64,000 bases of DNA from Arthrobacter sp. StoSoilB5. GTDB taxonomy: Bacteria > Actinomycetota > Actinomycetes > Actinomycetales > Micrococcaceae. Numbering within the stretch: the stretch's first letter is position 1; each line of letters starts with the position of its first letter. Positions 1,672-20,321 of the stretch are shown one piece after another. The position numbers were made by a program, and so were the translations under genes. The notes beneath the pieces are model-generated. The model saw nothing but the letters and a program-made list of their open reading frames with translations, did no database searches and was not told the DNA's origin. The stretch is taken from the NCBI RefSeq assembly GCF_019977235.1, contig NZ_AP024646.1:2852001-2916000 (forward strand). Reading direction: 5' to 3'.

Positions 1672-1716
1672 GGGGTCTTTTGGCCCTACGTCCCGATGCC
1701 CAGGGCTTCCTAGGCT
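1672..1716 (+). promoter_or_regulatory. DevR-type box and -10 element of the flavoprotein gene at 1764
   Basis: The palindrome-like GGGTCTTTTGGCCCT at 1673-1687 matches the box found before other genes of this island (13 of 15 bases identical to the site at 6191-6205). A TAGGCT hexamer at 1711-1716 follows after 23 nt, the same geometry as the other sites. Seen in sequence; DevR binding is inferred. Confidence 0.6.
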
Positions 1717-1763
1717 CGCAGTAGACGACGGGTGAACGCACCCGCCCAATGGAGGAGATGAAG

Positions 1764-2207
1764 ATGACACTGCCAAACACTGAGCCTGGCCGGATCGATG
1801 GAGCACGGCATGTCAGCGAAGACCTAAGCAAAGACCAGTGCTGGGAATTGCTCCGTTCGCAGACTACCGGCAGGGTTGGATTCGTGCATCACGGGAGGGT
1901 GATGATCCTTCCTGTTAACCACTTGATCCACAGGAAAAATATCTACTTTCGTACAGCTGCCGAAGGGCTTATCGGCGAGCCATTTGCACGGATGCAGGTA
2001 TCGTTCCAGGTTGACGACTTCCGGATGGACAGGAGTGAAGGCTGGTCTGTGCTCGCCAGTGGTCCGTCTTCCCATGTCGTAGAGCCTGAGCTGTTGACCG
2101 AGCTCTGGGGCAAGGCCATGGCCGAGCCTTGGGCAGGCGGTGGACGTGACCTCTTCGTCCGTATTCAGGTCGTCGAGATGACAGGCCGGCACGTCTACTT
2201 GGCCTGA
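1764..2207 (+). CDS. Pyridoxamine 5'-phosphate oxidase-fold flavoprotein
   Basis: 147-residue split-barrel flavin-binding protein. It starts with the paralog signature DQCWELLRSQTTGRVGFVHHG and has ILPVNHLIHRKNIYFRT in place of the usual FPVNY...FRTG segment, followed by a truncated C-terminal half. ATG 1764 is preferred over ATG 1749 because GGAGGAG at 1751-1757 then sits 6 nt upstream. It is one of five such paralogs in the island (others at 8877, 9418, 12902 and 18859). Relatives bind FMN, F420 or heme and act as small oxidoreductases; this copy is the most divergent. It probably forms an operon with the downstream Usp gene (41 bp gap). The substrate is unknown. Confidence 0.8.
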   Translation: MTLPNTEPGRIDGARHVSEDLSKDQCWELLRSQTTGRVGFVHHGRVMILPVNHLIHRKNIYFRTAAEGLIGEPFARMQVSFQVDDFRMDRSEGWSVLASGPSSHVVEPELLTELWGKAMAEPWAGGGRDLFVRIQVVEMTGRHVYLA

Positions 2208-2248
2208 CAGCACCCATGGGCCATGCGTGGCGGAACGAGGAATCGACC

Positions 2249-3088
2249 ATGAATGACAACGAGCTGATCGTCGTTGGCTACGACGGTTCACACGAGGCAG
2301 ACAGGGCCGTGCAGTGGGCTGCCCGGCTGGCCAACAAGAGAAAATGCCCGCTGCAAGTGGTGCATTGCTCGCTCTGGCCAGTTATAACCCACAACCTGGA
2401 ACCTGTGCCTGGAATCGCCGAAAGCGGCCTGCGCCACGCCGCCGAGTCGGTCGTTTCCGAAGGAGTAGCCCGCGTTCATGAGGTGTCGGCTGACGTTGAG
2501 GTCACAACAAGCCTGGTGTATGGCTGGCCGGCAGAGAACCTGCGCAAATTGGCCTCACACGCTTCCCTCCTCGTTGTGGGTACGCGCGGCATTGGCGGAT
2601 TCCTGGGCCTGCTGGTTGGATCGGTCAGCCTCGAGCTGGCCGCCACGGCGGCCTGTCCCGTGGCCGTCATCGGGCCCGTGGAGCGTCCCGGCGGACCCGT
2701 CGTTGTCGGAATCGACGGGGAAGACTGGGAGGCGACGCTCAGGTATGCAGCGTCCTTCGCACACCAAGCCCAAGCGAGCCTAAGGGTTGTGCACGTTCGC
2801 AGAAAGCACGACGGCCATGACCCGGCTGAGGGCCCTGGCGCCCGGGAAATGCTCGACTCCGCATTACGTACCGTACGCAACACGTCGCCTGGGCTGGAGG
2901 TGGCGGATGTCCTGCTGACTGGAACATCCGTCGCAGGAACACTCTTGAGCGCGGCAAGTGATGCACAGGTTGTCGTTGTGGGGAGTTCCGGCCTCGGCCT
3001 CGTTAAAGGCAGTATTGGTTCGACTGCCCATGCCGTGCTCCACCACGCCGGCTGCCCGGTGATTGTCGTCAGGCACACCAAGCCATAA
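2249..3088 (+). CDS. Universal stress protein, tandem two-domain
   Basis: 279 residues with two UspA domains (about 1-145 and 150-279). Each ends with a nucleotide-binding loop: GTRGIGGFLGLLVGSVS in the first and GSSGLGLVKGSIGSTAH in the second, followed by CPVAVIG and CPVIVV. Start ATG 2249 has AACGAGGA upstream at 2234-2241; the in-frame ATG at 2216 lacks a site. It follows the flavoprotein gene on the same strand and converges on the Usp gene at 3198-4061. Tandem Usp proteins in mycobacteria bind ATP and are linked to growth arrest; the role here is inferred from family and context. Confidence 0.9.
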   Translation: MNDNELIVVGYDGSHEADRAVQWAARLANKRKCPLQVVHCSLWPVITHNLEPVPGIAESGLRHAAESVVSEGVARVHEVSADVEVTTSLVYGWPAENLRKLASHASLLVVGTRGIGGFLGLLVGSVSLELAATAACPVAVIGPVERPGGPVVVGIDGEDWEATLRYAASFAHQAQASLRVVHVRRKHDGHDPAEGPGAREMLDSALRTVRNTSPGLEVADVLLTGTSVAGTLLSAASDAQVVVVGSSGLGLVKGSIGSTAHAVLHHAGCPVIVVRHTKP

Positions 3089-3147
3089 CAGAAGGCTGGT
3101 CGTGGCAGCGAAGGATCCTGAACCTGAAGGTCCCCCGAACACCTGAA

Positions 3148-3176
3148 GGGCCCCGGAACGTTTGGATCCAGGGCCC
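3148..3176. terminator. Candidate bidirectional terminator hairpin
   Basis: GGGCCC at 3148-3153 can pair with GGGCCC at 3171-3176, with extra partial pairing inside. It lies between two convergent Usp genes. There is no clear T-run, so the call is tentative. Confidence 0.35.
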
Positions 3177-3197
3177 GTTCAAGCTACAGCGCTCAGG

Positions 3198-4061
3198 CTA
3201 CTCGGAGTGCTTCACCGTATGGACGCGGGTGATGATGGTCGGGCACGGCAGCTTGCTGAGAACTGAGTGTGCCGTGGATCCCAACAGAAGACGCTTGAAA
3301 CCGCCATGCCCCTTGCTGCCGACAACCAGCAAGCGTGCAGTAGCGGCGGCGGCGATAAGTGCCTCGGCCGGTCCCATGTGGGTCTCCAGAACCTGATGCA
3401 CAATGAGGTCTGGGTAGGTGTCGGCAAGTCCTGCAACCGTTTCGGCCAACACCACGCGTTCTTCCTCGGCGACGATTTCTGAGAAGTTTCCTGGGGGCAT
3501 GCCGCGGCTAACCACCGGCTCGGGCAGCCGGAAGGCGTGGAGCACGGTAAGTTCCTGCCCTTCCCGATCTGCCTCGGCTGCGGCAAACGCAACGGCTTGC
3601 GTGGACTCTTCCGAGCCGTCCACGCCGACGAGGACGCCGTGCCGGTTCGCCAGATCGTGCTCTCCTATAACTGCCACGGGGCAGTGGGCCACGGCGGCAA
3701 CCTGCAGCGCACGGTCAGTGAGGGACCCCCCAACCCAGCTGTGCCCGGACCCGATAACCACCATCGAGGCCTTCTTTGACTTCTTACGCAGCGCGTATCC
3801 GGCCCCTCCTGACACCAAATCGGTGCTTATTTCGACAGTCGGCTCAAGTTTGCTGGCCCGGTCCTTGGCCGTTACAAGGAATTTGTCACCGGATTCCCGG
3901 ATCCATTCGTTGTACCCAACGGCGTCATATGCCCAGCGGTCATCCACTGCGTGAACAAGCTGGACCGGCAATTTCAGGGCGGCCGCCCTCTGCATGGCCC
4001 ACCGCGTGGCAGCGTCGCTACTGGGGGAGTCGCTGACACCAACGACAATTGCTTCCTTCAT
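3198..4061 (-). CDS. Universal stress protein, tandem two-domain
   Basis: 287 residues with two UspA domains. The first starts IVVGVSDSPSS and ends with GSGHSWVGGSLTDRA...CPVAVIG. The second starts VLVGVDGSEES and ends with GSKGHGGFKRLLLGSTAHS...CPTIIT. The second loop fits the ATP-binding consensus; the first is degenerate, so one nucleotide site may be non-functional. It starts at ATG 4061, preceded by AAGAAGAACGGGA. A DevR-type box sits about 90 bp upstream at 4151-4166. It is transcribed toward the Usp gene at 2249-3088. Confidence 0.9.
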   Translation of the reverse strand: MKEAIVVGVSDSPSSDAATRWAMQRAAALKLPVQLVHAVDDRWAYDAVGYNEWIRESGDKFLVTAKDRASKLEPTVEISTDLVSGGAGYALRKKSKKASMVVIGSGHSWVGGSLTDRALQVAAVAHCPVAVIGEHDLANRHGVLVGVDGSEESTQAVAFAAAEADREGQELTVLHAFRLPEPVVSRGMPPGNFSEIVAEEERVVLAETVAGLADTYPDLIVHQVLETHMGPAEALIAAAATARLLVVGSKGHGGFKRLLLGSTAHSVLSKLPCPTIITRVHTVKHSE

Positions 4062-4122
4062 GGCTGGTCCCGTTCTTCTTGGATGTTTCCCCGGAAGGGT
4101 GAGGCCGGGGCTTTGTGAGTCC

Positions 4123-4166
4123 AGTTTCTGCCTTCCTTTTCCTGGGAGTTAGGGCCGGAAGTCCTA
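4123..4166 (-). promoter_or_regulatory. DevR-type box and possible -10 for the Usp gene at 3198-4061
   Basis: AGGGCCGGAAGTCCTA at 4151-4166 reads TAGGACTTCCGGCCCT on the minus strand, close to the published mycobacterial DosR consensus core GGGACTwwAGTCCC. The same 15-mer AGGGCCGGAAGTCCT recurs at 20278-20292 before ackA. On the minus strand GAAACT (4128-4123) lies 22 nt downstream of the box and could be a weak -10. Confidence 0.6.
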
Positions 4167-4221
4167 CTAGGCCCAGTCCGGGCGGACACTGGGGCCTCTC
4201 CTGTCCCGGGTTGGCCCCCGG

Positions 4222-5607
4222 CTATTCCGGCGCCTCGACTGAGATGGCCTCCAGATATTCCGGAACCCGTGCTTTCCAACCCAATTCACGCTTGATTCGA
4301 AGACGCAACGCGTCTGAGGCTTCCGGTTCACCGTGCGTGACGTAGGTCATCCTTGGCGCCTGCGGAGCCGAACGCATCCACCGGATGATGGCGTCGGCGT
4401 CGGCATGTGCACTGAAACCCTCGAGTTGGATCACTTCGGCGCGTATCGGAACGTCGTGTCCATAGACCCTGAGCTCACGTGCACCGCCCGCAAGCGCCGC
4501 ACCGCGGGTTCCGGCGGCTTGGTAACCACTCAGCACCAGGGCGTTCTTTGGATCGGAGCCATACGCCTCTATGTGGTGCAGGATCCTCCCGCCGGTCAAC
4601 ATTCCGCTGGCTGAGATGATGATCATCGGCCCCCCACGGAGGTTGAGGAGCTTTGAGTCATCCGCGCTTCTGGTCATGGTGGCGAGCTGGTACATGTTTT
4701 TGAATTCCTCAGGACGCAAGCGATGCTCCTCCGGATGCTGCTGGTACATGTAAGAGGCGTCGATGGCCATGGGACTGTTGAGGTAAACCGGTACGTCCGG
4801 GATGCGTCCATTACGGCGAAGACGGGCCAACTGCAGCATCAATGTTTCGGCACGTCCCACTGCGAACGCCGCGATGAGGATTACCCCTCCACGTTTGATG
4901 ACACGGTTGACTACTTCTCCGAGTTCATTTTCAGAGCTGCCCAAGGGATGTGCACGGTTGCCGTACGTGGACTCGGTGACCAGGATGTCAACAGCACCAA
5001 GTTCGCGCGGCGGGTACATGAAGGGATCGTCCGTCCTGCCCAGGTCACCAGTGAAATGGACGGAGTGCCCGCCCACTCGGACATGGATTTGGGCCGCCCC
5101 CAGGATGTGGCCTGCCGGGACAAAAGTGGCCTCAACTCCGTGGCCTAGGTCGACGGTGGCATCGAAATCCACTGGCCTGAAGCTGTTAAGTGATGTGACG
5201 GCGTCCGCGGCGGTGTAGAGCGGAAGGGCAGGCACGTGGACTGAGGAGCCCGTTTGGCTTGCGTAGCGGGCTTCCTCTTCCTGCAGATGGCCGCTGTCAG
5301 GCAGCAGCAGTTTGCAAAGCTGGTTGGTTCCATGCGTCGCGTAGACGGGCCCGCGAAAACCATCCCGGACCAAGACCGGGACGTAACCCGTGTGGTCCAA
5401 ATGGGCATGGGTCAGAAGTATGGCGTCAATGGAGGAAGGCGTAACCGGGAAGGGCCTGCGATTGCGTTCCCGAAGCCGCTTATAACCTTGGAAGAGCCCG
5501 CAGTCAACGAGTACCCGCGAGCCTTGGAATTCAAGGAGATACCGCGAACCTGTGACCGTATCCGTTGCGCCGAGAAAGCGGAGTCTGGGGACGTGCTTGT
5601 TATGCAT
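4222..5607 (-). CDS. MBL-fold beta-CASP exo/endonuclease-family protein
   Basis: 461 residues. The N-terminal metallo-beta-lactamase domain has the zinc motif THAHLDHTGY (His67, His69, Asp71, His72) and the further ligand region HFTGDLGRTDD. A beta-CASP insert (about 245-370) and a C-terminal RMMBL motif (LEGFSAHADADAI) follow. This is the CPSF73/YSH1-like RNA-processing subgroup rather than a lactamase. Start ATG 5607 lacks a strong ribosome site. It stands alone between a Usp gene and an SPW gene on the same strand. Known relatives process or degrade RNA; a role in RNA turnover during dormancy is only inferred from location. Confidence 0.85.
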   Translation of the reverse strand: MHNKHVPRLRFLGATDTVTGSRYLLEFQGSRVLVDCGLFQGYKRLRERNRRPFPVTPSSIDAILLTHAHLDHTGYVPVLVRDGFRGPVYATHGTNQLCKLLLPDSGHLQEEEARYASQTGSSVHVPALPLYTAADAVTSLNSFRPVDFDATVDLGHGVEATFVPAGHILGAAQIHVRVGGHSVHFTGDLGRTDDPFMYPPRELGAVDILVTESTYGNRAHPLGSSENELGEVVNRVIKRGGVILIAAFAVGRAETLMLQLARLRRNGRIPDVPVYLNSPMAIDASYMYQQHPEEHRLRPEEFKNMYQLATMTRSADDSKLLNLRGGPMIIISASGMLTGGRILHHIEAYGSDPKNALVLSGYQAAGTRGAALAGGARELRVYGHDVPIRAEVIQLEGFSAHADADAIIRWMRSAPQAPRMTYVTHGEPEASDALRLRIKRELGWKARVPEYLEAISVEAPE

Positions 5608-5659
5608 GGGGACCTATCAACGTTGGCCGGCAGTTTTTTGCAGGGGGATTCGGGGAAGC

Positions 5660-5691
5660 ATCTGGCGCCGGGCGATGCTCCGGCGCCAGAT
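5660..5691. terminator. Perfect 12-bp hairpin after the SPW gene
   Basis: ATCTGGCGCCGG at 5660-5671 pairs perfectly with CCGGCGCCAGAT at 5680-5691 around an 8-nt loop. It lies just past the SPW gene stop (minus strand) and upstream of the nuclease gene, where an intrinsic terminator would insulate the two. No long T-run follows. Confidence 0.6.
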
Positions 5692-5702
5692 ATTTGTCCT
5701 TG

Positions 5703-6065
5703 CTAGGACGACGGCATGACGTGGTGATGCCGGTATTCCTGGGTACTGGGTTTTATTGCCAATGCGGTAACTACCAACGCAACGGCGCCGGCAATCCACG
5801 CGCTCCAGGCCGCGCCCGTGGCAGAAGTGAAGCCGGCTACCCACGGCGCCAGCAGCAGGGCCACGGCAATAATGGCTTGTGCCCATTCCGCGGCAGGCAT
5901 CCCCGGCATGGCAAGGTTAACGACCCCGCCGATGACAAGGAGTATGCCCAGCGTGACCATTACCGCCGTCGAGGACCCCATTTGACTGGTCCACAGCACT
6001 GAGAGGGCCGCATAGGCGCCGGCTGCGACAACGGTCCAGTCCTGCCATCGCGTCCATTTCTTCAT
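5703..6065 (-). CDS. SPW-repeat family small membrane protein
   Basis: 120 residues with four predicted membrane helices (about 12-30, 36-55, 63-80, 87-107). The pattern W..W..V..G.Y.ALSVLW followed by LLLAPWVAGFTSATGAAWSAWI fits the SPW-repeat family (SPW/APW at the ends of helices). Function is unknown. It is divergent from the response regulator gene at 6289 and shares an intergenic region with two DevR-type boxes, so co-regulation is likely. It starts at ATG 6065 with AAGGAGCAAGAACACC upstream. Confidence 0.8.
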   Translation of the reverse strand: MKKWTRWQDWTVVAAGAYAALSVLWTSQMGSSTAVMVTLGILLVIGGVVNLAMPGMPAAEWAQAIIAVALLLAPWVAGFTSATGAAWSAWIAGAVALVVTALAIKPSTQEYRHHHVMPSS

Positions 6066-6138: not shown

Positions 6139-6205
6139 AGCGTCCGTTCAAACCACATGGCACAACAGGGCCGAAAGTCACGAGGCGGCAGGGTCCTTGG
6201 GCCCT
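6139..6205. promoter_or_regulatory. Two DevR-type boxes between the SPW gene and devR
   Basis: AGGGCCGAAAGTCAC at 6167-6181 and AGGGTCCTTGGGCCCT at 6190-6205 lie in the divergent intergenic region. On the minus strand GACGCT (6144-6139) is 22 nt from the first box and could be the SPW -10. No convincing TAGnnT element was found for the devR side. This arrangement suggests autoregulation of devR, as known for mycobacterial devR. Confidence 0.6.
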
Positions 6206-6288
6206 TGTGACCCGGCGAGGAGGTCGGCAACAATTTGGAGGTGTTGAAAGATCGGCATGTGCGGTGCCCCCCGCCGGAGAGGATAATC

Positions 6289-6996
6289 ATGAATCGCATA
6301 GAGGAATCCGGCCAGGACATCACGGCTCAGCCCATCAGTAGGGCGCAGCCCATCCGCGTCTTCATACTCGACGACCACGAATTGGTACGCCGGGGTTTGC
6401 AGGAGTTGCTGGAAAGCGAAGGGTTCGAGGTGGTTGGCATGTCCGGGTCTGCCGAGGAGGCGACACGCCGGATACCAGCCCTGCACCCCGACGTAGCGGT
6501 CTTGGATGCGCGGCTTCCGGACGGGACAGGAATCGAAGTTTGCCGGGACGTCCGCTCCGTGGACCCTCGCCTCAACTGTTTGATTCTGACCAGCTACGAC
6601 GACGAGCAGGCACTGCGGGGAGCAGTCCTGGCTGGCGCTGCCGGTTACATACTCAAGGAAATTGGCGGCACGGATCTCCTGGGCGCCTTACGACGGGCAG
6701 CCCGCGGCGAATCGTTGTTCGATGAGTCCGTCAAGGCTCGGATTATCAAGGGACTGACGGAGCCCAAACGGCTGGATCCGCGCGTAGCGTCCCTGACCCC
6801 GCAGGAGCGGCGTGTCCTGGACTACGTCGGCCAAGGCATGACCAACCGCCAGATTGGCGAGGAGATGCTCCTGGCAGAGAAGACTGTCAAGAACTATGTC
6901 TCGTCATTGTTGGCGAAACTGGGTTTTGAGCGCCGGACCCAGGCCGCGGTTTTCATGGCCCACACGCCAGGGGACGACTCAGGACGAGGTCGCTGA
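6289..6996 (+). CDS. devR: DevR/DosR-like NarL-family response regulator
   Basis: 235 residues. Receiver domain: acidic pair Asp28-Asp29, phospho-acceptor Asp73 in VLDARLPDGTGIE, LILTSYDD, and the conserved Lys in YILKE. The C-terminal LuxR-type HTH reads LTPQERRVLDYVGQGMTNRQ...LAEKTVKNYVSSLLAKLG, then FERRTQAAVF. From memory this is nearly identical to the recognition region of mycobacterial DevR (Lys-Thr-Val-Lys-Asn-Tyr-Val). That supports reading the GGGnC...GnCC palindromes in this window as its targets. Start ATG 6289 has GGAGAGG at 6276-6282. It converges on the cognate kinase gene 7014-8723. The N-terminal 20 residues are an extra tail. Confidence 0.92.
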   Translation: MNRIEESGQDITAQPISRAQPIRVFILDDHELVRRGLQELLESEGFEVVGMSGSAEEATRRIPALHPDVAVLDARLPDGTGIEVCRDVRSVDPRLNCLILTSYDDEQALRGAVLAGAAGYILKEIGGTDLLGALRRAARGESLFDESVKARIIKGLTEPKRLDPRVASLTPQERRVLDYVGQGMTNRQIGEEMLLAEKTVKNYVSSLLAKLGFERRTQAAVFMAHTPGDDSGRGR

Positions 6997-7013: not shown

Positions 7014-8723
7014 TCACCGCAACGGAACGGTCCATGTCAGCGAGGTACCTTTGCCCGGGGTGCTGGTGATGGTGCATGAACCATTGAGTTCAGCGGCCCG
7101 GCGGATCATGTTCCCCAGCCCATTGCCGGACCCGGGCTCCTTGAATCCGCGGCCATCATCGGCCAGCTCCATGATCAGGGCGCCGTCTTCCACTGCCACG
7201 GCAACGGTGATGGTTTCTGCCCCCGAATGGCGGACGGCGTTGCTGAGGCTTTCTGTAATGACTGCCAACAGGTGCTCTACGACAACCTCGTCTTCCAAGG
7301 CGTCCACGGCACCTGTCAGTGTCAGGTGAGGTGCATGTGGCAGGGCCTTTGCCCCCGCATGTATGGTCCGCAGGATCCGGCTACTCAAGAGCTCACGTTC
7401 ACGGGTATTGGCCCGCAGCGAGTAGATAGTATTCCGAAGATCGCGGATGCTGGTGTCGAGCTCGTCCGTTATGGCATCGATTCGCCCTGCAGCAGAGCCT
7501 GTGGAAGTGAAACGACGCAGGCTTTGGATGCTCAGTCCTGCGGCGAAGAGCCGTTGAATCACCAGATCATGAAGATCCCGCCCGATCCTGTCCCGGTCGG
7601 TAAAGACCACCAACTGCTCACGTAAGCGATGAATACGGTCAAGGGCCAGAGCCAAGGCCACGTGTGAGCCGTAGACGGATGCCATATCAATATCGGTGGC
7701 GGAGAAGGCCCCGGTGCCGGGCGAACGGCCCAGTATGAGGAATCCCTGATGGGTGCCCTGGGCGCTGAGGTCCACCATGAGCAATTTTCCCGGCTGCCCA
7801 TCGCCTGTGCCGTCAACGAGTCTCCAAGGATCATCGAAGGTGGTGGCTGCCCCGTCCAAGGTACCGGCGCCGACATCCGCGGAATCCACGGATAGCACCC
7901 GACCCCTGAGTGCGACGCTGTTTATTCCGGCGAAACCCTCCACAGTGTAGCCCCCGGGCCGCTCGGCGGCAGGCAGCAGGACCAAGGCCAGCTTCGCCTC
8001 GGATTCCAGCAAAGCCCTGCTTGCGATCAGGTCCAGGGATGCACTTTCGGGCTGGCCGTCCTCAAGCATCCTGCCGGTGATGTCCATGCAGGCTTCGAGC
8101 CACGATGTCCGGCGACGGGCGTCCTCGTAGAGGCGCGCGTTCTCAATGGCCACGCCGGCTGCGGCCGCCAAGGCAATCGCCAGATCCTCGTCCTCCGGCG
8201 TGAAGTCCTCGCCGCCGTTCTTTTCCGTCAGGTAGAGGTTCCCAAAGACCGTGTCCCGGACCCGGACCGGTACACCGAGGAACGATTTCATTGGAGGATG
8301 GTGCCGGGGAAAGCCATACGCTTTGGGATGCTGGCTGAGATCATGGAGCCGCAGCGGCGCGGGCTCAGTGATCAGGAGACCAAGGACCCCGTGGCCGGTG
8401 GGAAGAGGGCCGATCCGGCTGGCCAGGTGGTCATCGATGCCGACGGTGATGAAGTGACTGAGTGCGTTGTCCTCGCCGATGACGCCCAGAGCGCCATAGC
8501 GTGCTTGGAGGAAATCGCAGGCGGATCTTACAACCCGCTCCAACACGGATTCGAGGCTCAGATCCTCCGCCACGGCCACCACCGCTTCCAGCAGCCCCCG
8601 TGTTCTCTCCTGCGCCTGGAGCAGTTCTCCCGCCCGGGCCATGAAGTCTTTCAGGAGATCTTCCAACTGGACTCCCGGCGCGCTCGGGGGCTCGTTGCGT
8701 GCTTCCTCCGGAGAGTCGTTCAT
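7014..8723 (-). CDS. devS: DevS/DosT-like GAF histidine kinase
   Basis: 569 residues: GAF-1 (about 60-205), GAF-2 (about 228-368), HisKA_3 dimerisation domain with phospho-acceptor His385 in [13 protein letters not shown], and HATPase_c (about 478-567) with N-box ESLSNAVRHSG and G-box ADDGRGF...GNGLGNM. In GAF-1, His142 of FPRHHPPM lines up by position with the heme-proximal His149 of DosS; heme binding is inferred, not shown. It starts at ATG 8723 with GAAAGG upstream. It converges on devR with an 17-bp gap and is divergent from the flavoprotein gene at 8877. It presumably senses hypoxia, NO or redox and phosphorylates DevR. Confidence 0.92.
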   Translation of the reverse strand: MNDSPEEARNEPPSAPGVQLEDLLKDFMARAGELLQAQERTRGLLEAVVAVAEDLSLESVLERVVRSACDFLQARYGALGVIGEDNALSHFITVGIDDHLASRIGPLPTGHGVLGLLITEPAPLRLHDLSQHPKAYGFPRHHPPMKSFLGVPVRVRDTVFGNLYLTEKNGGEDFTPEDEDLAIALAAAAGVAIENARLYEDARRRTSWLEACMDITGRMLEDGQPESASLDLIASRALLESEAKLALVLLPAAERPGGYTVEGFAGINSVALRGRVLSVDSADVGAGTLDGAATTFDDPWRLVDGTGDGQPGKLLMVDLSAQGTHQGFLILGRSPGTGAFSATDIDMASVYGSHVALALALDRIHRLREQLVVFTDRDRIGRDLHDLVIQRLFAAGLSIQSLRRFTSTGSAAGRIDAITDELDTSIRDLRNTIYSLRANTRERELLSSRILRTIHAGAKALPHAPHLTLTGAVDALEDEVVVEHLLAVITESLSNAVRHSGAETITVAVAVEDGALIMELADDGRGFKEPGSGNGLGNMIRRAAELNGSCTITSTPGKGTSLTWTVPLR

Positions 8724-8794: not shown

Positions 8795-8870
8795 GGGCCA
8801 TTCAGGCCTCCACAGTTGGCTGGGTAGGGGGCTTTGGGCCCTGTCGCAATGCCGTGGGCCGGCTTAGTGT
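8795..8870 (+). promoter_or_regulatory. Two DevR-type boxes and -10 of a leaderless flavoprotein gene
   Basis: GGGCCATTCAGGCCT at 8795-8809 and GGGGCTTTGGGCCCT at 8828-8842. TAGTGT at 8865-8870 follows after exactly 22 nt, and only 6 nt then separate it from ATG 8877. Transcription would therefore start at or next to the A of ATG, giving a leaderless mRNA. No ribosome site is present, which agrees. Confidence 0.65.
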
Positions 8871-8876
8871 CATCGC

Positions 8877-9367: not shown

Positions 9368-9410
9368 GGGACCAACGGCCCTAACGACGCCGACCTGCCG
9401 CCGCTAGCGT
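9368..9410 (+). promoter_or_regulatory. DevR-type box and -10 of a leaderless flavoprotein gene
   Basis: GGGACCAACGGCCCT at 9368-9382 is followed after 22 nt by TAGCGT at 9405-9410. ATG 9418 comes 7 nt later. Spacing matches the sites before 8877 and 18859 exactly. Confidence 0.65.
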
Positions 9411-13324: not shown

Positions 13325-13419
13325 GGTCTTTCTCCTGCACTTGAGGTAGGGGCTGCCGGGCTGGAGGGCCTCTCACAGCTGATGTCCGTGATCCTACGGC
13401 TGGCCGTGTTGGCCCCAAC

Positions 13420-13434
13420 AGGGTCGAAGGTCCT
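13420..13434 (+). promoter_or_regulatory. DevR-type box upstream of pta
   Basis: AGGGTCGAAGGTCCT matches the island consensus and resembles the sites at 6167 and 16095. A second weaker element, GGGACCATGACCT, is at 13447-13459. No TAGnnT hexamer at the usual distance was found, so promoter geometry here is uncertain. It could also serve the divergent flavoprotein gene. Confidence 0.5.
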
Positions 13435-13529: not shown

Positions 13530-15605
13530 ATGGTCCAGGGCGTTTACGTTGCTTCCGTGGCTCCGGGTTCCGGAAAGTCGCTGGTTGCTTTGGGGCTGGC
13601 CGATGCCCTGCATCGCAGGACGGGACGGTTGGGCTTCTTCCGGCCGCTGGTCAATCGCGCCGAGGCGCAGGAGGACCCCGTAATCGTCATGCTTCGGCGA
13701 CTCTACGAACTGGAACCCTCCCGCTGCCGGAGCGGTATGTCCCTCGACTCAGCGAGGGCTGACGTCGCGGCGGGCCGCCAGGACGAAGTGTTCTCCTGGA
13801 TCCTCGCGGAGTACAGGGGGATTGCGCAAGAGTGCGATGTGGTGGTGGTTGACGGCTCGGATCTCCGTGGAAACGACGCCGGAAGGGAATTTGACCTCAA
13901 CACCAGGTTGGCGAACAACCTGGGGCTGCCTGTGCTGGCTGTGGTTGGCGCAAGGGGACTCTCGGTGGAACAAACAGCAGGCGCAGCGGAGGCAGCCGTC
14001 AGGCAGTTCAAGGCCGGGCGCTGCCCGGTCCTGGCGTTGGTGGTGAATCGCGCCGATCCCGGGGCACTGGAGGATGTCCATCGAGCTGTAAGGGCGTCTG
14101 CGGGGGAGGTCCCTTCATACGTGATACCCGAAGTGCCTCATATTTCCACCCTGACTGTTGCAGACGTCGCTTCCGCCTTGGGCCTTACCCGTCTGTCGGG
14201 CAGCACAGAGCTGGACCGTGATGTGCGCAGCATCAAGGTGGCGGGGATGAACGTGGATAACTTCCTTGAGACCCTCCGTCCGGGCGATCTGGTCATCGTT
14301 GCCGGTGACCGCTCCGACGTCATGATGGCCTGCCTGGCCTCGGCCCTGTCGCCCGAACTTCCGACGCCTGCGGGCATTATCCTGACGGATGGGTTGCTTC
14401 CCGGTGCACACGTGCTGCCGTTGTTGGAGCGTGCGCCCTTCCCTGTCTTCACACACTCGACAGATACGTATGCCACAGCACAAAAAGTCGCAGGTGTGCG
14501 CAGCGAAATCCACACGGGGGAGAACCGTAAGCTGGCAGCTGCCCTGGGTGTGTGGTCCCGATGCGTCAACGAAACCGAAATGCTCGATCGTTTGGCCCTT
14601 CCCCATCCGGCCACGATGACACCCCTCCGCTTCCTCAACGAGCTGATCGAAAGGGCCCGGAAGCAGGAACGAAGAATTGTCCTGGCCGAGGGCGAAGAAT
14701 TGCGCGTCCTGCGGGCGGCCGAGATCCTTCGACGCCGGGATGTTTGCAGGATAACGGTCCTGGGCGACGTTGCTGTGATCCGGGAGCTCGCTGAAGCCCA
14801 TGGCATCGATGTGAGCGGGCTCCAGATCCTTGATCCTGCCAGTTCACCGCTCAGGGAGCGCTTCGCTGCCGAGTATTGCCGCTTGAGGGCGCACAAAGGC
14901 ATGATCATGGAACGTGCCCGGGAAATCATGCTTGAAGGGGCGTACTTCGGCACAATGATGGTCCAGCTCGGTGAAGCAGACGGCATGGTCTCCGGCGCGG
15001 CTCACACTACGGCCAACACCATACGGCCTGCGTTGGAGTTCGTGAAGGGCCGGGAGGGGGAGGGCCTGGTGTCCTCTGTTTTCTTCATGTTGTTTCCGGA
15101 CCGGGTGTTCGTTTATGGAGACTGCGCAGTGGTTCCCGAGCCAAACGCAGAACAACTCGCGGCAATCGCCATCGCTTCCGCTGACACTGCTTCCCGTTTC
15201 GGCGTAGAGCCGAGGGTGGCCATGCTTTCCTATTCGACGGGAGGCTCTGGATCCGGAACTGCCGTAGACAAGGTGCGATGCGCTACGGAACTGGTCAGGG
15301 AAGCACGTCCTGACCTTCCGGTGGATGGGCCAATTCAGTACGACGCCGCAGTAGATGCGACCATCGCGAGCTCCAAGTTGCCTTCGTCAGCAGTGGCAGG
15401 GAAGGCGACTGTCTTCATCTTTCCCGACCTCAACACTGGCAACAACACCTATAAGGCGGTGGAGCAGTCCTCGGGTGCTATCGCCGTCGGGCCCATCTTG
15501 CAGGGTCTGCGCAAGCCCATCAACGATCTATCCAGGGGCTCAACAGTGGATGACATCATCAACACGGTAGCCATCACCGCCGTCCAGGCGCAGCACGCAG
15601 GCTAG
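13530..15605 (+). CDS. pta: Phosphate acetyltransferase
   Basis: 691 residues, the long three-domain type. N-terminal BioD-like P-loop domain with VAPGSGKSLVALGLADAL (residues 10-27), DRTGG domain (about 220-340), and C-terminal PTA_PTB catalytic domain (about 370-690) with SGAAHTTANTIRPALEFV and SYSTGGSGSG. It interconverts acetyl-CoA and acetyl phosphate. Start ATG 13530 has GGAGGGA upstream. ackA and xfp lie at 20375-23963, so acetyl-phosphate metabolism is complete in the island. The stop overlaps the stop of the convergent Usp gene by 4 nt. A DevR-type box lies about 95 bp upstream. Confidence 0.95.
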   Translation: MVQGVYVASVAPGSGKSLVALGLADALHRRTGRLGFFRPLVNRAEAQEDPVIVMLRRLYELEPSRCRSGMSLDSARADVAAGRQDEVFSWILAEYRGIAQECDVVVVDGSDLRGNDAGREFDLNTRLANNLGLPVLAVVGARGLSVEQTAGAAEAAVRQFKAGRCPVLALVVNRADPGALEDVHRAVRASAGEVPSYVIPEVPHISTLTVADVASALGLTRLSGSTELDRDVRSIKVAGMNVDNFLETLRPGDLVIVAGDRSDVMMACLASALSPELPTPAGIILTDGLLPGAHVLPLLERAPFPVFTHSTDTYATAQKVAGVRSEIHTGENRKLAAALGVWSRCVNETEMLDRLALPHPATMTPLRFLNELIERARKQERRIVLAEGEELRVLRAAEILRRRDVCRITVLGDVAVIRELAEAHGIDVSGLQILDPASSPLRERFAAEYCRLRAHKGMIMERAREIMLEGAYFGTMMVQLGEADGMVSGAAHTTANTIRPALEFVKGREGEGLVSSVFFMLFPDRVFVYGDCAVVPEPNAEQLAAIAIASADTASRFGVEPRVAMLSYSTGGSGSGTAVDKVRCATELVREARPDLPVDGPIQYDAAVDATIASSKLPSSAVAGKATVFIFPDLNTGNNTYKAVEQSSGAIAVGPILQGLRKPINDLSRGSTVDDIINTVAITAVQAQHAG

Positions 15606-16060
15606 GCGTCGTCCTCCGTAGCCACCAGAAGAACCGGGCAGTGGGCATGGGCTGCACAAGCCTTGCTGACCGATCCAATGGGCTGGTTCAGGAACCCGCC
15701 GGCGCCGTGCCTGCCTACGACGAGCAACTGTGATCCACGGCTTTCCTCGACCAATACCTTCGCTGGTTCGCCGAATTTGACAGTGACCGTCAGGTCTTCG
15801 GGGCGGGACTCTCCGAAAGCGCGTTCAAGTGCCTCGTCCACCAACCGCCTCGCCGTGTCCTCAAGCTGTGAAGTGAAGCGGGTCAGTTCATGTTCGAAGC
15901 GCGATGCCATGTAGAAATCGGACATGCCGATACACGTGATCACGTCAATGGGCCCACCCAGGGCGGACGCCAACCGCCCTGCCATTTCGAGGGTCTTCGA
16001 GGAGTATTCCGAGCCATCGACGCCGACGACGATTCGATTCGGCCGTGATTGTGAGTTCAT
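15602..16060 (-). CDS. Universal stress protein, single domain
   Basis: 152 residues: RIVVGVDGSEYSSKT at the N-terminus and nucleotide loop GRHGAGGFLNQPIGSVSKA followed by AHCPVLLV. ATG 16060 is chosen because the Usp fold begins there and sequence upstream does not resemble a Usp. No Shine-Dalgarno is visible. CAAGCT (16072-16067 on the minus strand) lies 6 nt before the ATG and 22 nt after a DevR-type box, so it is probably leaderless. It is close to a CtpF-like ATPase on the same strand, a Usp/ATPase pairing also seen in the mycobacterial DosR regulon. Confidence 0.88.
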   Translation of the reverse strand: MNSQSRPNRIVVGVDGSEYSSKTLEMAGRLASALGGPIDVITCIGMSDFYMASRFEHELTRFTSQLEDTARRLVDEALERAFGESRPEDLTVTVKFGEPAKVLVEESRGSQLLVVGRHGAGGFLNQPIGSVSKACAAHAHCPVLLVATEDDA

Positions 16061-16066
16061 GGGACC

Positions 16067-16109
16067 AGCTTGGCCCTGCGCACGGTGCCACGATAGGGCC
16101 GAAGGACAC
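16067..16109 (-). promoter_or_regulatory. DevR-type box and -10 for the Usp gene at 15602-16060
   Basis: AGGGCCGAAGGACAC at 16095-16109 shares 12 of 15 bases with the site before pta. Read on the minus strand, the box ends at 16095, then 22 nt, then CAAGCT at 16072-16067, then 6 nt to the ATG. Confidence 0.55.
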
Positions 16110-16113
16110 GTTT

Positions 16114-18723
16114 TCAGGCCGGCGAAGGGGTTCCGCTTTGCCGGTGGCGCAGCCGTTTGTAGAGCCAATCGACGCCAAGGACGCCAGGAATGGCAAGGAC
16201 GGCTACGAGCCACCCCAAGGCAGTAGGCGGCGCCTGTCCAAGGATTCCGGCCAGGGGCGGAACGAACAGGAACAGGGCCAGTGCCGCCAATTCCGCGGAT
16301 ACAGCCCAGAGCAGGAGCCGGTTGGTGAACCATCCCTGCTTCCACGGGGGAGCCGTTGCGCTTCTGCATGCGAAAGCGGTAGCGAGTTGGCCCAGCACAA
16401 CGGCGGCAAAGGCAGCCCCGGACGCTGACATCAGTACACCCGGATCCAATGATTGGCCACGAGCCCAGCCGCTGCCGAACAGCACTGTTGAGAATGCCGT
16501 CATTGCGATCAAGGCCTCGGTGGGTCCCATCACGGCAAACACCCTCAGCATGAGTAGACGGTCCAGAAGGTGCCGCTTTTCGGGAGGTCTCTTCAATACA
16601 AGCTTTCCCGGCGGCTCGGCCCCGAGAGCCAGGGCAGGCAGCAGATCTGTTCCGATGTCGAGCGCCAGGATCTGGAGGACACCAAGCGCAAGCGGGAACT
16701 GGCCGCCTGACAATGCCCAGATGACGAAAGGTGCCAGCTCTGCCACGTTGTCGGTGAGGTGGTAAGTGAGGAAGCGGTGAATGTTCGAGTAGGTTGCCCG
16801 CCCTTGTTCGATTGCGGCCACGATCGTAGCGAAATGGTCGTCCAGGAGAACCAAGTCCGCAGCTTCGCGGGCCACGTCTGTGCCGCTGAGTCCCATGGCT
16901 ACTCCGATGTCGGCCTGGCGAAGCGCGGGACCGTCGTTGACGCCGTCTCCCGTCATCGCCACCACATGGCCGCGGGCCTGCAAGGCCTTCGCCACGCGGA
17001 GCTTTTGCTCCGGTGAAACCCTGCTGACCACAACTCCGTCGCGGTCCAGGAGGGCACCGAGGATCTGCTCGTCCCCCGGGAGATCGACGCCTTGGACAAC
17101 GAGGTTGTCCGGACCCATCAGCCCAATTTCCGTGGCGATTGCACCGGCCGTTGATGGGTGGTCGCCAGTGATCATTGCAATCCGGATCCCAGCCCCCCTG
17201 GCTGCCTTGATCACGTCACCGACATCCGGCCTGGGCGGGTCATGGAGCCCGATGAGGCCCAAGGGTACAAGGTTGCGTTCGGCCTCCACGGCCGATCGTT
17301 CCAGCCAGTCCTCCGCCGTACCAGGCAATTCCCGGCTTGCCACTGCTATCACCCGCAATCCGCGCGAAGCCATCGACTCCACAGCGTCGGCCAAGTTGCC
17401 AGAGGTATCCCCGCACAAGGGCAAAACGGACTCCGGTGCCCCCTTAACGAAAAGCGTGGTCCCGACGATGACGGACTCCCGGCGTCTGTTGGCGTCAAAG
17501 GCAAAGCGCCGCATCGTGGTGACCGTTTCAGGCTCACGTCCCAGCAGCCGCCGGGCAAGGGAATCAATCGCCGCTTCCATAGGGTCGCCGCTGGCCGTCC
17601 ATTCACCTGCATGTTGCACGGCCCGACCTTGCGACGCTGCCCGTGCACCCAAAGCAGCCAGCAACGCCGCGCTGCGTGCCTGCCCTTCGATCCGTGCAAC
17701 GGGGCCGTAGCCCTCGCCCCCGATTTTCACCGGACCGTCGGAAGTGAAGACTTCGACGGCGTTCATCCGGTTTTGCGTCAAGGTACCCGTTTTGTCCGTG
17801 CAGATGAAGGTGGTTGAACCGAGGGTCTCGACTGCCTCCAGATTGCGAACCAGCGCATGTCGTTCAGCCATCCGCTGCGCTCCCATGGCCAGCGACAAAG
17901 TGACGGTGGGCAGGAGGCCCTCCGGAATCAGCGCCACGGCAACGCCGATCGCAAACAGAAACGAGTCGCGCCAGACGATTCCTACCAAGAGTGAAACGAC
18001 GAAGAACAAGCCTGCAACGCTCAAGGCAACAAGTGCTACGAGCCGGACGATCCTCCGGAGTTCCAGGGTCAAGGGAGTTGGTGGCGACTTGGTGCCACTC
18101 GTGAGTGCCGCAATGGCAGCCAGTTTGGTGTTGCCGCCAGTGGCGGTGACAAGGCCCTCTGCTTCTCCGTTGACCAGGAACGTTCCGCCCCAGGCGGGGT
18201 CATTGCTGCCTTTCGGTACTGCTGCACTTTCGCCGGTCAGCATGGATTCATCCACCGTGCAGCTTGAGGCAGCAACGAGCAGGATGTCCGCGGGCAGCCT
18301 GTCGCCAGCGGCCAGAATGACGACGTCTCCCGGGACGAGGTCGCTTGCGTGGACGCTTTGGATCCTGCCATCGCGTCGTACATTCACTTCGGCCGGGAGG
18401 AGGCCCTGCAGCCGTTCAGCTGCGTGCTGGGCACGTTCTTGCTGGATGTGGGCGAAGACCCCGTTGACGATCACAACAATGATGATTGCCACACACAACT
18501 GCGGCATGCCACCGATGTAGGCCAAGGCGGCTGCGACCCACAACATCAACGCGAAGAAGTGCGTCAACTCGCCCAACAGCTTTCGCCACTGCGGCACTTT
18601 TCCGGCTTGTGGCAGTACATTGGGTCCAGCTTCTGCCAACAAGCCCGCGGCCGCACCGGAACTCAGCCCATCGGTTCCGGTCGCCGCAGGCAGCGGTGCG
18701 GGGGGTTTGTTCCCAGGGGACAT
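16114..18723 (-). CDS. P2-type cation-transporting ATPase, CtpF-like
   Basis: 869 residues. Cation ATPase N-terminus (GLLAEAGPNVLP), E1-E2 actuator with DESMLTGESAAVPKG, membrane motif ALIPEGLLPTVTLSLAMG (PEGL type, as in calcium-like P2 pumps), phosphorylation loop ICTDKTGTLTQNRM, and hinge MTGDGVNDGPALRQADIGVAMG. About ten membrane helices, with the C-terminal cation ATPase domain present. ATG 18723 (GGAGA just upstream) is preferred to the in-frame ATG 18792. In mycobacteria the P2 ATPase CtpF belongs to the DosR regulon, and location here suggests the same. The ion, probably Ca2+ or another divalent cation, is inferred. Confidence 0.9.
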   Translation of the reverse strand: MSPGNKPPAPLPAATGTDGLSSGAAAGLLAEAGPNVLPQAGKVPQWRKLLGELTHFFALMLWVAAALAYIGGMPQLCVAIIIVVIVNGVFAHIQQERAQHAAERLQGLLPAEVNVRRDGRIQSVHASDLVPGDVVILAAGDRLPADILLVAASSCTVDESMLTGESAAVPKGSNDPAWGGTFLVNGEAEGLVTATGGNTKLAAIAALTSGTKSPPTPLTLELRRIVRLVALVALSVAGLFFVVSLLVGIVWRDSFLFAIGVAVALIPEGLLPTVTLSLAMGAQRMAERHALVRNLEAVETLGSTTFICTDKTGTLTQNRMNAVEVFTSDGPVKIGGEGYGPVARIEGQARSAALLAALGARAASQGRAVQHAGEWTASGDPMEAAIDSLARRLLGREPETVTTMRRFAFDANRRRESVIVGTTLFVKGAPESVLPLCGDTSGNLADAVESMASRGLRVIAVASRELPGTAEDWLERSAVEAERNLVPLGLIGLHDPPRPDVGDVIKAARGAGIRIAMITGDHPSTAGAIATEIGLMGPDNLVVQGVDLPGDEQILGALLDRDGVVVSRVSPEQKLRVAKALQARGHVVAMTGDGVNDGPALRQADIGVAMGLSGTDVAREAADLVLLDDHFATIVAAIEQGRATYSNIHRFLTYHLTDNVAELAPFVIWALSGGQFPLALGVLQILALDIGTDLLPALALGAEPPGKLVLKRPPEKRHLLDRLLMLRVFAVMGPTEALIAMTAFSTVLFGSGWARGQSLDPGVLMSASGAAFAAVVLGQLATAFACRSATAPPWKQGWFTNRLLLWAVSAELAALALFLFVPPLAGILGQAPPTALGWLVAVLAIPGVLGVDWLYKRLRHRQSGTPSPA

Positions 18724-18784
18724 CGTTTCTCCAATGCGGGATGCCTGTTCGATGAAAGGCTCCACCAGTGACCGGGACGCGTCT

Positions 18785-18851
18785 AGGGCCAAAGGGCACG
18801 GTTGGGAAAGGACCTTCTGCCCTACACGTGCCGCGTCTGAGGCGTTAGGCT
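18785..18851 (+). promoter_or_regulatory. Two DevR-type boxes and -10 of a leaderless flavoprotein gene
   Basis: AGGGCCAAAGGGCAC at 18785-18799 and AGGACCTTCTGCCCT at 18809-18823. TAGGCT at 18846-18851 follows after 22 nt, and ATG 18859 comes 7 nt later. The region is divergent from the CtpF-like ATPase gene, which may also respond. Confidence 0.65.
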
Positions 18852-18858
18852 CTGCGCC

Positions 18859-19359
18859 ATGGAGAACACATCACCGGACCAGGAAACCAAAGAACTCAGC
18901 GTTCACGACTGCTGGAAGTATCTGCAGTCCACGTCCACGTGCAGGGTGGCACTCATCAATGGGGACGTTCCAGAGATCTTCCCGGTCAACTACATCCCCA
19001 ATTTCGGGACGCTGCTGTTCAGGACCGGGCAAGGGACCAAACACAAGGCCCTCCGCGAAGGGTCCGTGCTTGCGATGGAAGCTGACGGGTTCAACCGCTA
19101 CGGGACCATTGCCTGGAGCGTCATCATCAAGGGACGCCCCGAGTTTGTGACCCATCCCGAAGAAATCCAGGAAGCGGTGGATGCCGGCTTGTCCCCGTGG
19201 CAGCCCGGTCCCAAGGATATTTTGGTGCGGGTGACGCCCACGGAAATCAGCGGACGGAGGTTTGTCATCACACCACCCTCCAAATGGTGGCCACCGGTGG
19301 ATCCTGCCGCATCTGACGACGACGAGGCCGCGGAAGGGGACGACGCCGTAACCGGGTAG
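18859..19359 (+). CDS. Pyridoxamine 5'-phosphate oxidase-fold flavoprotein with acidic tail
   Basis: 166 residues. Blocks: HDCWKYLQSTSTCRVALING, EIFPVNYIPN, LLFRTGQGTKHKAL, GTIAWSVIIKGRPEFV, SPWQPG, and ILVRVTPTEISGRRFV. It ends with an acidic tail (PAASDDDEAAEGDDA) absent from the paralogs. It is closest to the copies at 8877 and 9418 and shares their promoter layout. ATG 18859 has no ribosome site and is probably leaderless. It is divergent from the CtpF-like ATPase gene and converges on a tandem Usp gene. Confidence 0.85.
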   Translation: MENTSPDQETKELSVHDCWKYLQSTSTCRVALINGDVPEIFPVNYIPNFGTLLFRTGQGTKHKALREGSVLAMEADGFNRYGTIAWSVIIKGRPEFVTHPEEIQEAVDAGLSPWQPGPKDILVRVTPTEISGRRFVITPPSKWWPPVDPAASDDDEAAEGDDAVTG

Positions 19360-19404
19360 GTGCCCACGTCCCGGTTTCCGCGGTTCTGGTTTGTAGCCCG
19401 GCTC

Positions 19405-20208
19405 TTAGGACGGCCGTGTCAGGATGGTGGGGCACTGGACATTGAGAAGAACGTGCTGTGCCACGGATCCCAGCAGCACCCGCAGGCCGCCCCGCCCGCG
19501 GCAACCCATGACCAGCAGCCGGGCGTCCCTGGCAGCAGCCACCAGCGCGTCCCCAGGGCCGAGACCGTCCTCCAGCCTTTCCTGCACGGATACCCCCGGG
19601 TAGCGTTCGTTGACCCAGCGAACGGCTTCAGCCAGGATGCCACTGTTCCGGGGAGATCGGGGCTCCGGACCCGAAGCATGAACGATGATCAGTTCTTCGT
19701 CCATACGCTGTGCCTCACTCGCCGCCAGATCCAAGGCAGTGAGCGAATCGGCGGAGCCGTCAACTCCGACCACCACGCCCGTGCGGACTCCGGATGCCAT
19801 GTCCGGAACCACAGCGACCGGGCAGTTGCTTGTGACTGCGATCTGGAAACTGACGGAGCCGTATCCCTGGCCTTCCGTCCCTGGCCCGCGGTCGGTTCCG
19901 GCAACCAGCATGTCTGCTTCCGGGGACAGGCCAGCGAGGGTTTCTGCGGGTTCTCCGGACAACTGCGTGGATGAGACCTCCAACGAAGGGTACGCCTCTG
20001 CGAGCCGCCCGGTTTCGCTGCCCAACAGGTCGCTGGCACGTTCCAGGGCCAACTTTCGTTCACCCTCCACGGGAAACGCCCAGTCCGGCGGAACCACATG
20101 AACGAGGTTGAGCCCCAGACCAGGGGCATCAGCATGTGCCGCCGCCCAGTCTGCGACATTCCGGCCCGCCCTGGAACCATCAAGGGCTGCCACGATCTGC
20201 TTCTTCAC
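19405..20208 (-). CDS. Universal stress protein, tandem two-domain
   Basis: 267 residues with two UspA domains. First: KKQIVAALDGSRAGRN to GTDRGPGTEGQGYGSVSFQ...CPVAVV. Second: GVVVGVDGSADS to GCRGRGGLRVLLGSVAQH...CPTILT. The GTG at 20208 is chosen because the Usp fold starts immediately after it and GAGGGG is about 10 nt upstream; the open frame also has a TTG at 20235. It is divergent from ackA, with a DevR-type box between them that has a possible -10 on each side. Confidence 0.85.
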   Translation of the reverse strand: MKKQIVAALDGSRAGRNVADWAAAHADAPGLGLNLVHVVPPDWAFPVEGERKLALERASDLLGSETGRLAEAYPSLEVSSTQLSGEPAETLAGLSPEADMLVAGTDRGPGTEGQGYGSVSFQIAVTSNCPVAVVPDMASGVRTGVVVGVDGSADSLTALDLAASEAQRMDEELIIVHASGPEPRSPRNSGILAEAVRWVNERYPGVSVQERLEDGLGPGDALVAAARDARLLVMGCRGRGGLRVLLGSVAQHVLLNVQCPTILTRPS

Positions 20209-20249
20209 GTAACGGCGTTCCCCTCGCAGTCCCAACAGTGATCGTTTCC

Positions 20250-20321
20250 ACTATCTGCGCGAGTGGCCGCAGCCGCAAGGGCCGGAAGTCCTTCCCGCCG
20301 CCTGCAGAAGTGCGTTAGGGT
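20250..20321. promoter_or_regulatory. DevR-type box shared by a Usp gene and ackA
   Basis: AGGGCCGGAAGTCCT at 20278-20292 is identical over 15 bases to the site at 4151-4165. Toward ackA, TAGGGT at 20316-20321 follows after 23 nt. Toward the Usp gene, GATAGT (20255-20250, minus strand) follows after 22 nt. One box could therefore activate both divergent genes. Confidence 0.6.

Follow-up and report, generated by a model that had tools for sequence, protein, structure and literature searches.

The first 20 kb of a 64,000-nucleotide (nt) stretch of the chromosome of Arthrobacter sp. StoSoilB5 (NZ_AP024646.1, positions 2,852,001 to 2,916,000; hereafter the window) carry a gene island around devR in which many promoters share one architecture. 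A GC-rich palindromic box is followed at 23 or 24 bases by a hexamer of the form NAnnnT. The island is very probably the core of a DevR/OsdR-type regulon, in which predicted DevR-bound boxes are held at a fixed distance from the −10 element. Two versions of the box are used. The strict box, GGG.C....G.CCCT, is the published core. The relaxed box, G.G.C....G.CCCT, has one position loosened after sites of the universal stress protein (Usp) type had been seen; this post hoc choice applies to the counts from the window, from the 71 boxed upstream regions of relatives and from the background. The spacing d counts the bases that separate the hexamer from the final C of the 14-bp core. A regular spacing of 22 or 23 nt, counted after the T, had been proposed in an earlier note made from these letters, and equals d = 23 or 24. 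The modules are as follows, with d given in nt; fractions are boxed upstream regions of relatives in other genomes that keep the spacing.

1113..1155, plus strand: promoter of usp 1192-1662; box GTGACCTAAGACTC, 23 nt, CAATCT; spacing kept in 10/10 boxed upstream regions of usp1171-like genes elsewhere.
1673..1716, plus strand: promoter of PPOX 1749-2207; box GGGTCTTTTGGCCC, 24 nt, TAGGCT; third best whole-genome profile hit.
4123..4165, minus strand: promoter of usp 3198-4061; box AGGACTTCCGGCCC, 23 nt, GAAACT; other genomes 3/4.
6139..6181, minus strand: promoter of small protein 5703-6065; box GTGACTTTCGGCCC, 23 nt, GACGCT; other genomes 2/2.
6191..6234, plus strand: devR promoter, predicted to be autoregulatory; box GGGTCCTTGGGCCC, 24 nt, AACAAT (6229); NAnnnT at 23/24 retained in 16/17 boxed devR upstream regions of other genomes.
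8828..8870, plus strand: promoter of PPOX 8877-9347; box GGGGCTTTGGGCCC, 23 nt, TAGTGT, 6 nt to ATG; second best profile hit; other genomes 11/12.
9368..9410, plus strand: promoter of PPOX 9418-9882; box GGGACCAACGGCCC, 23 nt, TAGCGT, 7 nt to ATG; fourth best profile hit; other genomes 4/4.
13391..13434, minus strand: promoter of PPOX 12902-13324; box AGGACCTTCGACCC, 24 nt, TAGGAT; fifth best profile hit; other genomes 2/2.
16067..16109, minus strand: promoter of usp 15602-16060; box GTGTCCTTCGGCCC, 23 nt, CAAGCT, 6 nt to ATG; other genomes 3/4.
18757..18799, minus strand: promoter of cation P-type ATPase 16114-18723; box GTGCCCTTTGGCCC, 23 nt, GAGCCT; the single orthologue upstream region examined (L036) has no box of two or fewer mismatches.
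18809..18851, plus strand: promoter of PPOX 18859-19359; box AGGACCTTCTGCCC (two mismatches), 23 nt, TAGGCT, 7 nt to ATG; sixth best profile hit.
20250..20292, minus strand: promoter of usp 19405-20208; box AGGACTTCCGGCCC, 23 nt, GATAGT; other genomes 1/1.
20279..20321, plus strand: promoter of acetate kinase 20375-21523 (and of phosphoketolase if co-transcribed); the usp 19405 palindrome reversed, 23 nt, TAGGGT; one orthologue (L037) has a perfect box and TATGGT.

These modules emerge from a set of 20 island genes taken without choice. Thirteen have a relaxed box of at most one mismatch within 230 bp, and NAnnnT stands at d = 23 or 24 in 12 of those 13. The thirteenth module is that of PPOX 18859, with its two-mismatch box. 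The spacing is 23 in ten modules and 24 in three. TAGnnT occurs in six modules (five PPOX genes and ackA), and hexamers beginning CA, GA or AA in the other seven (usp, small protein, ATPase and devR genes). The earlier note had given TAGnnT as the general form, which holds for those six of 13; the others use (C/G/A)AnnnT. Its five TAGnnT hexamers are all found (1711-1716, 8865-8870, 9405-9410, 18846-18851 and 20316-20321), as are its weaker minus-strand hexamers, GAAACT at 4123-4128, GACGCT at 6139-6144, CAAGCT at 16067-16072 and GATAGT at 20250-20255. Four promoters of the same geometry had been given no hexamer: usp 1113/1150 (its box also unlisted), devR 6191/6229 (AACAAT), P-type ATPase 18786/18757 (minus strand) and PPOX 12902, 13421/13391 (minus strand, TAGGAT).

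The boxes match GGGnCnnnnGnCCC with zero to two departures. They are present at 1673, 4151, 6167, 6190, 8828, 9368, 13420, 16095, 18785, 18809 and 20278, which is 11 of the 12 places listed beforehand. The twelfth, 8795, is not a promoter-proximal box of fixed geometry, because it has two core mismatches and no hexamer at 23/24. It scores 8.8 with a matrix of published Streptomyces coelicolor sites, above 8828 (7.5), and is possibly a distal accessory site. A plus-strand reading of 13420 toward pta was likewise rejected: the window boxes on this reading are two-mismatch only, one in five has a hexamer at 23/24, and relatives give 0/2. A module-like site at 19868 lies in coding sequence and is probably due to chance; single weak sites such as 19868 and 8795 may both be so.

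The composite of box and hexamer is strongly concentrated in the island. The exact relaxed box with NAnnnT at 23/24 occurs seven times in window positions 1-20400 and five times in the 25.5 kb before the window, versus none in the window's remaining 43.6 kb and none in a background of 240 kb taken from the same chromosome. If one mismatch is allowed, the counts for positions 1-20400, the preceding 25.5 kb, the remaining 43.6 kb and the background are 13, 10, 4 and 18, the site at 19868 being one of the 13. No 23/24 peak appears in the 240 kb away from the island (0/6 exact boxes). The earlier note had asked whether unrelated DNA holds such sites at an equal rate; with seven exact sites in 20.4 kb of the island and none in the 240 kb of background, they are more frequent than chance would give.

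The spacing is shared by relatives of the island genes in other genomes. A box of at most one mismatch is found in 71 of 114 upstream regions (43 have none), and in 60 of these 71 NAnnnT stands at 23/24; the remaining pairs of neighbouring distances average 4.1, with a maximum of 11. A separate count searched the surroundings of devR, to a maximum of 20 kb, in 23 other genomes chosen by DevR alone, and allowed the strict box one mismatch. After the 337 oriented boxes so obtained, TAnnnT stands 20 times at d = 23 and four times at d = 24, with a mean of 0.57 elsewhere (d = 0 omitted). The geometry also appears among 57 further actinobacterial loci, including Nocardioides, Micromonospora, Actinoplanes and Kitasatospora, where 50 of 89 exact oriented boxes, in 32 of the loci, have (C/G/T)AnnnT at 23/24; other adjacent pairs average 3.0 and never exceed 7. 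In these other actinobacteria the DevR-linked −10 is mostly (C/G)AnnnT (43 of 48 distinct promoters) and is followed by GG (G at 0.69 and 0.73), possibly a discriminator signal.

Twenty-two promoters of other genomes supplied a sequence-only profile, with which the 5.3-Mb genome was scanned; 150 of 1393 first-look candidates were scored. The six best hits all lie within 2831363-2870855 (40 kb): 2831363, before the window, then window positions 8827, 1672, 9368, 13389 (minus strand) and 18810. The seventh hit, with E 0.37, is outside the island. The related-genome scan suggested beforehand also supports the regulon. Among 197 Micrococcaceae genomes, with DevR defined as a DevR-like protein at E ≤ 1e-40, the profile at E ≤ 0.03 finds the promoter in 46 of 72 genomes with DevR and in 0 of 125 without it (at most 14 of the 72 supplied the profile). 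At E ≤ 0.2 the counts are 56/72 and 14/125, where chance alone should give about 25/125 if the approximate E-values are right. Of the 64 hits with E ≤ 0.01, 45 have a DevR-like gene no more than 30 kb away. Without a model, the pattern of exact box, 23 nt and NAnnnT occurs at 377 sites versus 219 for the reversed control in genomes with DevR, and at 204 versus 292 in genomes without. Across the class, the window's own genome and one congener excluded, the profile at E ≤ 0.1 hits 53/219 genomes with DevR versus 3/75 without.

The regulator itself is strongly indicated to be a DevR orthologue. It adjoins one putative oxygen-sensing kinase, and a second, shorter relative opens the window.

6289..6996, plus strand: devR, a NarL/LuxR-family response regulator of the DevR/DosR/OsdR type.
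7014..8723, minus strand: DosT/DevS-like sensor histidine kinase, 569 aa, with GAF, HisKA_3 and HATPase domains; adjoins devR.
1..1104, plus strand, starting 210 nt before the window: second DosT/DevS-like sensor, 437 aa, with GAF and HisKA_3 domains.

DevR has a receiver domain with a phospho-acceptor Asp and a NarL-type helix-turn-helix with a DevR-like recognition helix. Its best PDB match is Mycobacterium tuberculosis DevR, 3c3w (214 bits, E 1.4e-62). In this alignment the Asp is kept (vavlD) and the recognition helix is almost identical (AEKTVKNYVS-LLAKLG-ERRTQAAVF), in agreement with the near-identity to mycobacterial DevR reported in the earlier note. No NCBIfam model exceeds its cut-off among the matches listed; the best is MadR, at 150.6 bits against a cut-off of 300. 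The nearest named relatives are the DevR proteins of Paenarthrobacter histidinolovorans (85% identity) and Arthrobacter sp. 9V (84%). Boxes are concentrated near devR and precede usp genes, a feature of such regulons.

The adjoining sensor is a DosT/DevS-like, putative heme sensor. Its GAF-A domain matches 2vzw (E 7.2e-52), which we take to be DosT, as well as DevS chains. The alignment shows conserved His and Tyr residues equivalent to the DevS heme ligand and distal Tyr, presumably H149 and Y171 in DevS numbering, and HisKA_3 and HATPase are both present. The second sensor is 53% identical to the first over 427 aa and ends just past HisKA_3. The His and Tyr positions are kept, no HATPase match is found, and the full set of DosT/DevS features is absent. 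Such a protein may work only jointly with a full kinase, or as a decoy. The 28 relative loci searched have one match each; in those loci where an orthologue of the 7014 sensor had been placed, the match sits at that place, so no second copy beside devR was seen. Each of three genomes of one Micrococcaceae genus holds 6-7 DevR-like proteins (E ≤ 1e-40) together with 9-13 profile hits (E ≤ 0.2), which suggests an expanded DevR network there.

Several observations weigh against a DevR regulon of fixed geometry. Within the island, the sensor gene 7014 is the sole exception: its box has one mismatch at most but lacks the hexamer at 23/24; the palindrome upstream of it is the PPOX 8877 box read backwards. 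Boxed upstream regions of relatives repeat this (0/5 for sensors, 0/2 for pta). No profile hit at E ≤ 0.2 is found in 11 of 65 genomes with the closest DevR, and the class-wide association, weaker altogether, does not hold at E ≤ 0.02 (20/219 versus 2/75, p 0.08). In six genomes of another genus of the same class, motif matches occur in four, and only three of 11 strict DosR motifs have NAnnnT at 23/24; by eye, several others carry TCnGAT-like hexamers at the same place. The geometry is therefore not claimed to be universal. The 45-kb island shows only a 2.4-fold enrichment for the matrix of 26 published S. coelicolor sites (15 versus 33 in 240 kb at scores of at least 8; 1 versus 3 at 12 or more), perhaps because the box centres differ. 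Over the whole genome, the half-strict GGNCNNNNGGCCCT is in no excess (111 versus 197 for the reversed pattern), and the exact box with 23 nt and NAnnnT gives five sites versus three for the control. Of 100 listed places of GGNCNNNNGGCCCT, nine fall in 18.6 kb of the window, three of them in coding sequence. Finally, kinship among the genomes and among orthologous promoters means that the counts do not represent independent events, and Fisher p-values overstate independence.

Three other explanations may be considered. The boxes could belong to another NarL/LuxR paralogue, with DevR merely their neighbour. Related regulators could share GC-rich palindromes, three genomes do carry 6-7 DevR-like proteins, and DevR binding to the boxes is itself a prediction. 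The promoter is nevertheless missing at E ≤ 0.03 from all 125 Micrococcaceae genomes that lack DevR, where other NarL-type regulators are expected. Proximity of 45/64 strong hits to a DevR-like gene, and a box equal to those of OsdR and DosR, also argue against a paralogue, which is improbable. Still less probable is that the hexamers are ordinary sigma-A −10 elements, and that the spacing arises from a box and a −10 each placed at a set distance from the start codon. In leaderless-type PPOX promoters the distance to the start codon is indeed constant, and this would set the places of box and −10 alike; ANNNT, moreover, is frequent in mycobacterial promoters (PMC6448022, partial text). Against this, the 23/24 spacing is kept while box-to-start distances range from 62 nt (PPOX 1749) to 146 nt (devR of the L045 locus), and other spacings average only 4.1 of 71.

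That the palindromes are chance or coding-biased GC-rich motifs is hardly credible. The whole-genome counts of the half-strict motif, in no excess over its reversal, and of the strict composite (5 versus 3) would fit such an origin, as would the mild enrichment of S. coelicolor matrix scores. These are set against the exact composite, found seven times in 20.4 kb and never in 240 kb, and against the six top profile hits, all in the island. DevR orthology, the adjacent DosT/DevS-like sensor and the co-occurrence of the module with DevR in the 197 genomes support the DosR-type regulon that the earlier note had suggested.

The regulon would operate as follows, its binding, activation, signal and start points being predicted. 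(i) Heme-GAF sensors of the DosT/DevS family would perceive low oxygen, nitric oxide or carbon monoxide, as expected for the family, and phosphorylate DevR. (ii) DevR would bind GGGnCnnnnGnCCCT-like palindromes, whose proximal half, mostly GGCCCT, would occupy the −35 place. If the hexamer is −12 to −7, the 14-bp core is centred at about −42.5 and spans about −49 to −36. A hexamer at 23/24 after the core means that the proximal box would overlap the −35 region. An activator at about −49 to −36 would be expected to substitute for the −35 element and to touch sigma region 4. (iii) DevR would then recruit the housekeeping RNA polymerase to a weak NAnnnT −10, 23 or 24 bp past the core; weak −10 elements fit activator dependence. 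(iv) Predicted targets are devR itself, four universal stress proteins, five PPOX-type proteins, the small protein, the P-type cation ATPase and acetate kinase, with phosphoketolase following the last. TAGnnT serves the PPOX promoters, three of the five with a putatively leaderless ATG, and (C/G)AnnnT the Usp-type promoters. A broader proposal has about an even chance of being right. Across DevR-bearing actinobacteria, the DevR promoter would be one rigid module, its box core centred near −42.5 and NAnnnT placed 23 or 24 bp beyond, with two −10 flavours, TAGnnT of the PPOX type, often leaderless, and (C/G)AnnnT, often followed by GG, at usp and other genes. These flavours could set graded induction, and the module, not the box alone, would define the regulon. 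DevR regulons would then be readable from sequence without expression data.

The distance to the start codon adds a further element. ATG lies 6-7 nt after the hexamer at PPOX 8877, 9418 and 18859 and at usp 16060, so transcription would begin at or beside the ATG, and leaderless starts are likely at these four genes. For several PPOX genes this layout would tie box, −10 and start codon into one unit. In other actinobacteria, the first start codon that opens a reading frame of at least 90 aa is most often found 6 nt past the hexamer, in 10 of 48 distinct promoters. In Micrococcales, 9 of 33 promoters have a start codon at 6-8 nt (collapsed sets). Forty profile-hit loci, of which the window's genome supplied 11, were searched with a stricter expression; it finds the promoter in 23, and ATG is at 6-8 nt in 15 of these, two being training promoters. 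An enrichment of leaderless starts among DevR targets is rejected, because 22% of expressed M. tuberculosis genes are leaderless (PMC3898074, partial text). As in the actinobacterial leaderless transcripts described there, the start codon in the island would coincide with the predicted 5' end; here the layout concerns three PPOX genes and one usp and is tied to the geometry of the DevR box. For the S. coelicolor PPOX gene SCO0214 a box is listed at −50 (PMC5069765, partial text), which would suit the same layout if counted from the first base of the box; this is a lead only.

The island resembles known systems in most respects. The OsdR consensus of S. coelicolor, AGGGCCGATCGGCCCT, was tested with point mutants by electrophoretic mobility shift assay, and the island box core equals the core of this 16-bp palindrome (PMC5069765, partial text). 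In the OsdR/OsdK regulon, too, boxes cluster around the regulator gene, osdR itself is boxed, and universal stress proteins, a PPOX protein and dehydrogenases are among the targets (PMC5069765, partial text). The island differs in its box centres, often CTTT-like where S. coelicolor has CGATCG, in predicted targets that include acetate kinase and phosphoketolase, and in the absence of nitrate reductase genes from the annotated genes of window positions 1-25414, to which that search was confined. The terms 'leaderless', 'spacing' and 'transcription start' do not occur in the available text of PMC5069765. The Mycobacterium smegmatis DosR motif, GGGACTTNNGNCCCT, is close to the island box (PMC6448022, partial text). 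The M. tuberculosis DevR/DosR regulon shares with the island a DevR orthologue, DosT/DevS-type sensors, GGGACTTNNGNCCCT-like boxes and a proximal Dev box, next to the transcription start point, that overlaps −35 (PMC3029386, partial text). Some M. tuberculosis genes need cooperative binding to at least two sites for full induction (PMC3029386, partial text), whereas the island promoters have one box at a fixed place.

The spacing regularity, given in the earlier note as the new element, stands as measured and is confirmed to be real, stronger than a reading of the letters could know. It is not wholly new, because the overlap of the M. tuberculosis proximal Dev box with −35 has been described (PMC3029386, partial text) and the box equals the OsdR box (PMC5069765, partial text). 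In open-licence literature, neither a DevR regulon in Arthrobacter relatives nor the box-to-−10 spacing was found, and an earlier spacing report for M. tuberculosis is possible. What is added to the known DevR/OsdR kind is a quantified and widely shared spacing, two −10 flavours and likely leaderless starts. The island offers a soil model, in relatives of Paenarthrobacter and Arthrobacter, for a switch studied chiefly in mycobacteria and Streptomyces. Through its rigid geometry, prediction can rest on a composite signal instead of a noisy 14-bp motif, and false hits become fewer (in 240 kb, none exact and 18 with one mismatch), which helps target genes to be read from sequence in related bacteria. 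The module also yields testable predictions: phase dependence, start points, and a link of oxygen sensing to acetate kinase and phosphoketolase.

The window is part of a single-contig, 5.30-Mb Paenarthrobacter-like chromosome. The annotation of positions 1-25414 holds five Usp genes, five PPOX-type (Pyridox_ox_2) proteins, P-type ATPases, pta, ackA, phosphoketolase and alcohol dehydrogenase (adh). Two gene groups lie downstream of modules.

9955 and 11032: adh and P-type ATPase, downstream of PPOX 9418-9882.
20375-21523 and 21537-23963, plus strand: acetate kinase, then phosphoketolase.

Rfam at gathering thresholds gives no match over window positions 1-24000. A beta-CASP metallo-hydrolase with an RMMBL domain is encoded at 4222-5607 on the minus strand and has no upstream box; it scores 363 bits against a type VII Cas14 model, far under the cut-off of 800. 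The island extends 5' of the window, where the region at about 2828-2834 kb holds a tandem Usp, a further PPOX-like gene and a P-type ATPase, the PPOX and ATPase being named by resemblance. Pairs of box and NAnnnT also occur 5' of the window, near 2840.1 and 2850.6 kb of the genome. Together with these, the PPOX promoter at 2831.4 kb takes the regulon island to about 20 kb 5' of the window.

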